From: Candidatus Poribacteria bacterium
GTDB taxonomy: Bacteria; Poribacteria; WGA-4E; WGA-3G
DNA: 39,933 nt
Assembly: GCA_028820845.1 (NCBI GenBank)
Contig: JAPPII010000020.1
Coordinates: forward strand, 1-39,933
Reading direction: 5' to 3'
The notes under the pieces are model-generated. The model did not search any database, was not told where the DNA came from, and saw only the letters and a list, made by a program, of their open reading frames with translations. Position numbers and translations under genes: made by a program. Shown here one piece after another: positions 12,786 through 39,933 of the stretch. Numbering within the stretch: the first letter of the stretch is position 1; the number at the start of each line of letters is the position of its first letter.

Positions 12786-12862
12786 GAGACGTTTGCAGGG
12801 CCATTCAGTTTTCCAATAATTTACATCCGGATGCCCCAACTTGTTGGGGAAAAGTGTGCTGT

Positions 12863-12878
12863 CCCGAATAAATTCGGG
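12863..12878. repeat. Short palindrome
   Basis: CCCGAA-TAAA-TTCGGG forms a perfect 6-bp hairpin in the non-coding stretch upstream of hrpB. Nothing else was recognised in 12786-12980. Confidence 0.4.
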
Positions 12879-12991
12879 CTTCCGGAAGCGTGAAGGCTTT
12901 ACATAGGTAAACTTAACTCTTAAAACTAAATAGCCCTGGCGACGTTTGGTGATATGCTTGACATTTCACCGTGTTTCTGGTATTATAAATC

Positions 12992-13012
12992 TACGCAATA
13001 AGTAGTTTTGGG
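12992..13012 (+). repeat. Left inverted repeat of an AT-rich island
   Basis: TACGCAATAAGTAGTTTTGGG is matched in inverted orientation at 14710-14730 with one mismatch, and similarity continues outward through TATAAT and inward through TTGAAA. The arms bracket the group II intron and the orphan gene. They could be terminal repeats of a non-autonomous mobile element. An outward-facing TATAAT (12987-12982, minus strand) lies just outside. Confidence 0.7.
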
Positions 13013-13091
13013 TTTGAAAATCCTTTGAAAAGCCTCTGAAAATTTGTACTGCTATCGGAAATTAGGACCACCGTCTAAACCAAGATTGTGA

Positions 13092-13810
13092 GTGCGTTTC
13101 AACAGACAATAGCAGAATGTAGGTTTAACTCCTACTCGGTGAACCTAACACCGTATATCTTACTCTAACTGCGTTGCTGGAAACAGCAACGTGGCAAGCA
13201 GGAGAAAATGGCGCATGTCTGCGGACATAGGCGAAACTCATAAGAGCGTCCAAAATTGACACGTCCGATAACGGATGGACACGGAGAAGCGAAAGTTGAA
13301 TATTCGTAAACCTCGTTATTGGTGACATAGATAACGCCTTGAAAAACTATGGTATTCTAAAGATACCTCTTCACAATAGGTATCTAAAAATCGCTACTCA
13401 TTGTTGGCGATTATATTAGGTTGAGAGAATACAGCATTGGGTTGCCCAATGTATCGGGGTAAAGAATACTCCTAAATCCATCTGTGAAGTCTGCTATAAG
13501 AGAGTTGGAAAGAACCTAAACGGATTCCCGTAGTCCGCAAGGTTGAGGAGATTAGGAACTCTCATGAGAGAGAAGCATAATCAGGTGGAGTGCTTTGAAA
13601 CATTTCTGAAAACATTTTATCTATAGAAATGAAATCTTGCGAAAGCCTGCGTCTATAGAAGTCTTAGACTTATGGATAAGAAGTAAAGTAAAAGTGGTCT
13701 ATGACCTAAAGCGTTTATCGCCACACTCGACTGGAGAGCTATGTGCGGTGAAAGTCGCACGCATAGTTCGGAAGGGGTTGTAGAGGGTCGCCCCTCTACG
13801 ACTACCTTAC
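13092..13810 (+). ncRNA. ORF-less group II intron (chloroplast-like type)
   Basis: The 5' end reads GTGCG (13092-13096), the group II consensus. Domain V is clear at 13736-13769: GAGCTATG pairs with CATAGTTC, the AGC triad is at 13737-13739, and there is a GTGAAAGT-type cap and a CG bulge. Domain VI follows (GTAGAGGG paired with CCCTCTAC) with a bulged A at 13801. EBS1 TCACAAT at 13371-13377 is exactly complementary to ATTGTGA (13085-13091), the seven bases before the 5' splice site. The 3' end near 13810 (AC) is less certain, with 13813 possible. At about 719 nt there is no room for a reverse transcriptase, and none is found, so mobility would need a protein in trans. Confidence 0.88.
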
Positions 13811-13843
13811 TATAATACCAATCACACTTGAAAGGAGTGTAAA

Positions 13844-14605
13844 ATGTTTAGGAATTTGTCTTTGGTAATTTTGATTTGCTGTATCGCAATATCTTTCAGC
13901 TTATTCAGTTTAGGAGATGAATCTACATCTACGGAAAAAGAAAATTCCAAAGTTTTAGAATTAAGATTAGCACTATCCAAACTTAAAGCGGAAAACGCCC
14001 GATTAAAGAAAACTTTAGAATTATTCAACAACGCTATTCCAGAATCTGCAACGAGAAGGATTTTACTTAGAGGCACTGCTGGGGACCTGTCATTAATTAA
14101 TGAGTTTGTTGAAGTTGAAGGCACCGTGAGTTATGTAGGTAAGGAATCTAAAGAATATACATTTGGTAAGGGTTACTACACAAATTTAGGAATACAAGGA
14201 CTCTCAAGAGAATTTCTTTTCGCTTCCCCCATTAAATTTGATAAGGGTACACACTTAACGGTAAAACTTCAGATATTAGAGATCGATCATATACATGATA
14301 ACCTGGAGTCTGCACTTATTGATATAGTGAAGATTCATTTAAATCAGAGAATGATCAAACCAAATATATCTTCACCTGGGATTGTAGCAGGATACGTAGT
14401 AGAAGTAGTAGGAAGACAGACAGCTCGTGTAGATGATAAGCTGCGTATAGTTTCTGCGGATGTGAAAATGGAAAGTGGAAAGAAAATTCATATTATATTT
14501 TCTAATCCACCTACTACTGGAATGATCCAAATCTTTGATAAGATCAAGATTAGACAGGTGGGAGAAAAATGGAAATTTATTGAGCATGTAAGCTCGCCAG
14601 ATTAG
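13844..14605 (+). CDS. Secreted orphan protein with N-terminal coiled coil
   Basis: I do not recognise this 253-residue protein. It has a signal peptide or N-terminal anchor (residues 1-25), then a coiled coil (about 30-66, with LELRLALSKLKAENARLKKT). The rest is a beta-rich region containing EFVEVEGTVSYVG and GYVVEVVGRQTARVDDKL, which could be two OB-like folds (inference). SD AAAGGAG at 13831-13837 fits ATG 13844. A TATAAT at 13811-13816 lies at the intron's 3' boundary and may be its -10 box. The base composition is markedly more AT-rich than neighbouring genes, consistent with acquisition by transfer. The intron lies directly upstream. Confidence 0.72.
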   Translation: MFRNLSLVILICCIAISFSLFSLGDESTSTEKENSKVLELRLALSKLKAENARLKKTLELFNNAIPESATRRILLRGTAGDLSLINEFVEVEGTVSYVGKESKEYTFGKGYYTNLGIQGLSREFLFASPIKFDKGTHLTVKLQILEIDHIHDNLESALIDIVKIHLNQRMIKPNISSPGIVAGYVVEVVGRQTARVDDKLRIVSADVKMESGKKIHIIFSNPPTTGMIQIFDKIKIRQVGEKWKFIEHVSSPD

Positions 14606-14681
14606 GCGTATAGTCAAAAGTTGCTATAACTTGGGGCGAACTCAAGAAAGGCATGCAGGTAACAACAGATAAAAATTAAAA

Positions 14682-14705
14682 AAAGTGGGTATTATTGCCC
14701 ACTTT
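14682..14705. terminator. Terminator-like hairpin after the orphan gene
   Basis: AAAGTGGG (14682-14689) pairs with CCCACTTT (14698-14705) around an 8-nt loop. The A-rich run at 14671-14681 would be the U tract for transcripts on the minus strand; the plus side ends only in CTTTC. It lies just inside the right inverted repeat. Confidence 0.6.
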
Positions 14706-14709
14706 CAAT

Positions 14710-14730
14710 CCCGAAACTACTTATTGCGTA
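14710..14730 (-). repeat. Right inverted repeat of the AT-rich island
   Basis: CCCGAAACTACTTATTGCGT plus A is the inverted partner of 12992-13012 with a single mismatch. A TATAAT box at 14735-14740 points outward and probably serves the next gene at 14768. Confidence 0.7.
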
Positions 14731-14767
14731 AACCTATAATTACCAACCTATATTTTGAAGGTCCATT

Positions 14768-39605: not shown

Positions 39606-39896
39606 TCAGCGCACTGGATCAATTAACTTACGAAAATGGACAGTAGGACTTCGTGAAATTTTCAGAAACACATCAGGGACATTATGCAATTCTCCTGTGG
39701 AGTGAAAAGGTTGTGTTCGTCGCCTACTCCTGTTAAAGTTGAGGTCTACGATACTGACAAATCGGTAGTCATAGTCATCAAGGAATTCTTCTAACTCCCA
39801 GAATGATTTTCCTATGGATTTACAGTAACTGATAAAACAGTATGCTCCCTTTAATTGTTGAGTGACATGTGATGCCAGTGTACTGCCCGCGGTTTT
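39606..39896 (-). pseudogene. C-terminal remnant of an FkbM-type methyltransferase
   Basis: On the minus strand a frame of 96 codons runs from an in-frame TAA (39899-39897) to TGA (39608-39606) without any ATG, GTG or TTG in its first half. It reads FWELEEFLDDYDYRFVSIVD and LHNVPDVFLKI, resembling the C-terminal part of FkbM-family methyltransferases (FLxxYGYRFVxxxDL). The SAM-binding core is missing. It is best seen as a truncated gene. Positions 39900-39933 hold a TATAAT (39926-39931) with no matching -35 box. Confidence 0.6.
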
Positions 39897-39933
39897 TTAG
39901 ACCACTCCCTAAAGGAAGATTGTGCTATAATGA

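Follow-up and report, generated by a model that had tools for sequence, protein, structure and literature searches.

Organization of the intron locus

The window, by which we mean the whole analysed stretch of 39,933 nucleotides of a Candidatus Poribacteria contig (JAPPII010000020.1), harbors a structurally complete group II intron without a protein gene. The flanks of this intron read as the left end and leader of an insertion sequence (IS) of the IS3 type, and an open reading frame (ORF) without known relatives in the genus follows downstream (Table 1).

Table 1. Features of the intron locus (positions refer to the window)
Feature	Position	Strand	Evidence or remark
Promoter-like TTGACA-17-TATTAT upstream of the intron	12958..12986	+	11/12 matches
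38-nt inverted repeat enclosing the module, left arm	12982..13019	+
5' exon, left end of IS3-type IS, 47 bases	13045..13091	+
IBS2 ACCAA, 5' exon	13079..13083	+
IBS1 ATTGTGA, 5' exon	13085..13091	+
ORF-less group II intron, 719 nt, GTGCG ... CTTAC	13092..13810	+	RF00029, empty IS sites, EBS/IBS, domain I fold
EBS2 hairpin	13314..13336	+
EBS2 TTGGT, within EBS2 hairpin	13319-13323	+
EBS1 hairpin AGATACCT-CTTCACAAT-AGGTATCT	13361..13385	+	8 bp, 9-nt loop
EBS1 TCACAAT, in loop of EBS1 hairpin	13371-13377	+
Additional hairpin adjoining EBS1 hairpin	13389..13412	+	resembles EBS1 hairpin of L143
Domain IV stub without ORF	13559..13733	+	limits approximate; colinear in seven ORF-less copies, window included
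Domain V, catalytic hairpin, 34 nt	13736..13769	+	RF00029 match
Domain VI with its branch A (unpaired) at 13804	13772..13808	+	RF00029 alignment; pairing deduced by reading the sequence
3' exon, 36 bases: IS leader including the ATG and the ribosome-binding site GAAAGGAG	13811..13846	+
Orphan ORF, 253 aa, begins at ATG after IS leader	13844..14605	+
Right arm of the same 38-nt inverted repeat	14703..14740	-

The covariance-model check proposed together with the original prediction was significant for domains V and VI, where the Rfam model RF00029 (cut-off 40 bits) matches positions 13734-13810 over its full length (1-77) with 62.4 bits (E 4.5e-10), the sole match in the whole genome. The predicted bulged A of domain VI is present at 7 nt from the 3' end of the intron, within the accepted distance of 7-8 nt. 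The predicted 5' end GTGCG (GTGYG type) is also in place and the 3' end is of the AY type; both boundaries are consistent with uninterrupted IS copies. Domain I is supported separately: when the initial ~260 nt of the intron were aligned with 12 relatives, 28 of 45 pairs exhibited compensatory changes. The 719-nt strand folds better than its shuffles (z = -4.2; none of 20 folded equally well). None of the plus-strand frames inside the intron exceeds ~60 aa, in agreement with the predicted lack of a reverse transcriptase (RT), and the RT/maturase that an autonomously mobile intron encodes in domain IV is accordingly missing. The locus represents a known kind, the ORF-less bacterial group II intron within an insertion sequence. 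The base 5' of EBS1 (T 13370) is unable to pair with the first base of the 3' exon (T 13811), which speaks against subgroup IIA; an EBS3, examined with regard to subgroup IIB (EBS3/IBS3 versus delta/delta' contact), was not located in the intron.

Exon recognition and the host insertion sequence

The 7-nt match between EBS1 and IBS1 had been part of the original prediction and holds with 7/7 pairs, IBS1 being located immediately before the intron. A second contact that the prediction did not contain, EBS2/IBS2, pairs at 5/5 positions. When 15 family members from different sites were compared, the introns fitted their own exons better than under any random reassignment, for EBS1 and EBS2 each (0/20,000 permutations, which treat the introns without regard to kinship). 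The EBS search regions were picked after the EBS1 position had been seen in the first members; this favours high scores in general, yet not the own exon over the others. A first alignment, which had placed the EBS1 hairpin of the window opposite a gap, was overruled by this self-fit and by position, because TCACAAT lies at intron position 280, in agreement with the EBS1 of near relatives (275-285). The additional hairpin next to it is possibly a spare EBS1 hairpin; judged by eye, the loop of this hairpin would match the exon of the family fragment L152 if two G-U pairs are allowed.

The description of the surroundings as non-coding DNA with an interrupted promoter or leader proved to be incomplete, since the host DNA has the sequence of an IS3-type left end with its leader. 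Compared with IS leaders, the 3' exon scores 38, a value reached neither by the best of 3000 shuffles (22) nor by any of 5679 36-mers of the window. Many uninterrupted copies of the IS left end exist in the genus and four more in this genome; the empty site of the latter reads ..AAGATTGTGA^TAT/GA.., with nothing gained or lost, and the exon junction after removal of the 719-nt intron would read ..GATTGTGA/TATAAT... The matches of both exons place the intron at one precise point of the IS leader. Without the intron, the leader would fold into a hairpin (AAGATTGT..ACAATCTT in some copies), and the insertion point is in the loop. The OrfA/OrfB pair characteristic of the IS3 family is present in intact copies, with HTH_Tnp_1 in OrfA and an integrase core plus HTH_21 in OrfB (PF01527, PF00665 and PF13276). 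The window carries the left end only, and the leader ATG is followed by the orphan ORF and no transposase.

The 38-nt inverted repeat encloses a module at 12982-14740; together with the IS left end and leader, this locates the intron in an IS relic within repeat-bounded DNA. The left-arm sequence has ~40 matching places in this genome, many of them at contig ends, and CGCAATAAGTAGTTTTGGG-type terminal repeats (both arms of the module and L163-L181) flank several different interiors, often at contig ends, and probably form the termini of several mobile elements. The IS has a further left end at 39879-39931, where the contig terminates, and a dispersed repeat of ~145 bp that recurs many times in this genome and in the genus lies at 12792-12938. 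The intron was not found in the same-species assembly G060, whose contig breaks off within the upstream repeat and leaves the site unreadable.

Relatives and probable loss of the protein gene

Sequences resembling the intron are present in 24 of 60 related genomes. Full-length relatives of the same RNA family (e.g., L117, L120 and L123) encode an RT-maturase-HNH protein in domain IV, unlike the window copy. Other relatives are ORF-less, namely L143, which is 78% identical to the window intron across its whole length, L138 and L133 as well as the 3' parts L135, L136 and L142. The domain IV of all seven ORF-less copies, including that of the window, is colinear, and the four full-length ORF-less introns (window, L143, L138, L133) are grouped in the tree with moderate support (91/88). 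The seven copies occupy at least five sites with retuned EBS sequences: the IS left end (window), the IS right end in antisense orientation (L135, L136) and the unrelated sites of L143, L138/L133 and L142. The insertion point of the window intron within the IS left end is also that of the three 5' fragments L152-L154.

This distribution bears on the possibility that a full-length intron inserted at the present site and lost its protein gene in situ. Full-length relatives are common, and the five changes of ORF status over the whole tree indicate that protein loss recurs in the family. The presence of one colinear domain IV at five or more sites argues instead for a single loss before dispersal; it makes independent insertions followed by loss unlikely, though compatible with the tree, and we regard loss in situ as quite improbable. 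The simplest history suggested by the sequences is a single loss of the protein gene and subsequent spread of the ORF-less form, which was probably mobilized in trans. The original suggestion of a protein acting in trans is therefore retained as history, given the common domain IV, the number of sites and the maturases of the relatives; for the present state of this genome it finds no support, as no such protein was found.

Apparent absence of a maturase and present state of the intron

Neither the maturase domain PF08388 nor a full-length match to the maturase profile of the family was detected in this genome (G000). The RT domain PF00078 occurs at two loci only, on the contigs C92 and C101, with no third RT, and both were rejected as hidden maturases: the protein on C101 is a 365-aa group II-like RT without a maturase domain or a nearby domain V, and the RT on C92 lies beside an ORF that reads as cas1. 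The former (L156) has relatives of 371-372 aa in G019, G003 and G030. The latter (L157; C92, 105500-110000) comprises 462 aa with a long insert between two RT halves and adjoins, besides the cas1-like ORF recognized by eye, a stretch of repeats; this RT looks CRISPR-associated. The search for related RT-containing introns that had been recommended thus yielded none in this genome and introns with a full maturase in relatives from the genus. The assembly is a draft of 125 contigs (95.5% complete), from which a maturase intron could be missing, and absence of the maturase from the genome itself is likely. In the related genome G010, assembled in one contig, ORF-less copies are accompanied by no more of a maturase than its C-terminal half.

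A genome without a detectable maturase could harbor the intron as a decayed fossil whose structure is still recognizable and too worn for splicing without the protein. The relic state of the host IS and the truncated family members in relatives, 5' pieces (L152-L154) as well as a 3' piece (L136), are in line with such decay. The intact domains V and VI, the fully matched EBS1 and EBS2, the retained helices of domain I and the lack of any large deletion in comparison with the ORF-less relatives all argue against it, and we rate the fossil as a somewhat unlikely interpretation. Intact domains V-VI and matched EBS/IBS pairs make splicing competence plausible.

The reading that we prefer, and consider reasonably probable, is that of an ORF-less intron that spread in trans, entered the IS leader and is now stranded, probably with its splicing capability preserved. 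It would descend from a genus-wide, maturase-encoding group II intron family, the protein gene of domain IV having presumably been lost in an ancestor common to several ORF-less copies. A full-length relative would have supplied the maturase/reverse transcriptase that mobilized the ORF-less RNA, and this RNA would have entered an IS3-type leader by reverse splicing, guided by EBS1/IBS1 and EBS2/IBS2. The host IS would then have decayed to its left end, leaving the intron stranded with no detectable maturase in the genome. Its RNA is probably still able to splice and, if transcribed from upstream, would be excised from the leader preceding the orphan ORF.

The downstream ORF

A fixed, possibly regulatory RNA had been offered as an alternative; it would govern the downstream gene through its splicing. 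The intron does lie in a leader, with 33 nt between its 3' end and the start codon at 13844, and below a promoter-like sequence; such promoter-like sites are no commoner than in shuffles. The 253-aa ORF has no family match and, among 38 genomes of the genus, occurs in this one only. No relative carries an intron of this family at this gene, and the association of intron and gene is not conserved. Moreover, the ribosome-binding site is located wholly in the 3' exon, outside the intron; the ORF is translatable with or without splicing and need not rely on it. A regulatory role hence finds no support, and we consider this alternative very improbable.

Comparison with known systems

The uncommon feature of the intron is its residence in a genome without a detectable intron-encoded protein, and its interest lies in a possible maturase-free persistence. 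The genus contains many ORF-less copies beside protein-encoding relatives, and some of its genomes lack a full-length protein; it offers a natural series for studying how an intron may turn from a mobile element into a stranded, host-dependent RNA. Accounts of how spliceosomal introns arose usually include such a step.

One comparable system is TeI3 of Thermosynechococcus elongatus, whose ORF-less introns stem from one ORF deletion, occupy many sites with good EBS/IBS pairing and are mobilized by the protein of a related intron (PMC2882425). The window intron resembles TeI3 in the missing ORF, the several sites, the good EBS/IBS pairing and, probably, the single ORF loss and the mobilization in trans; the driver protein of TeI3 is encoded in the same T. 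elongatus genome, whereas none was detected in that of the window. Another example is the ORF-less group II intron C.te.I1 of Clostridium tetani, whose host genome encodes no intron protein and which was given in 2015 as the only such case known (PMC3919590, PMC4424553). Both are ORF-less bacterial introns; the genome of C.te.I1 lacks such a protein, and none was detected in the draft assembly of the window genome. C.te.I1 undergoes alternative splicing in vivo, whereas splicing of the window intron is predicted from its sequence. For RmInt1 of Sinorhizobium meliloti, the usual target is likewise an insertion sequence, of the IS630 type (PMC4496777). It differs in encoding its own protein and in this target, the window intron being ORF-less and inserted in an IS3-type leader.

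Other insertion sites of the family

Two maturase-encoding introns of the family (L117:1529-4910 and L120; G026:C77:46528-49908 and G018:C1:2171757-2174833) interrupt a tRNA-Arg gene (CCU by sequence) in the D-arm. An uninterrupted copy with at least 89% identity, as present in nearly all other genomes of the genus, was found in neither G026 nor G018, and ARAGORN called no tRNA at the interrupted loci. The tRNA-Arg exon pairs imperfectly with EBS1 (5/6 pairs). Residence in a tRNA gene does not make a new kind of bacterial group II intron, as TeI4h of T. elongatus is a precedent. In G010, finally, a GTGCG 5' end is located 112 nt inside the 5' part of another intron (L129, oriented positions 1864 and 1976; G010:C1:3502700-3507000), which reflects either the insertion of one intron into another or the duplication of a part.
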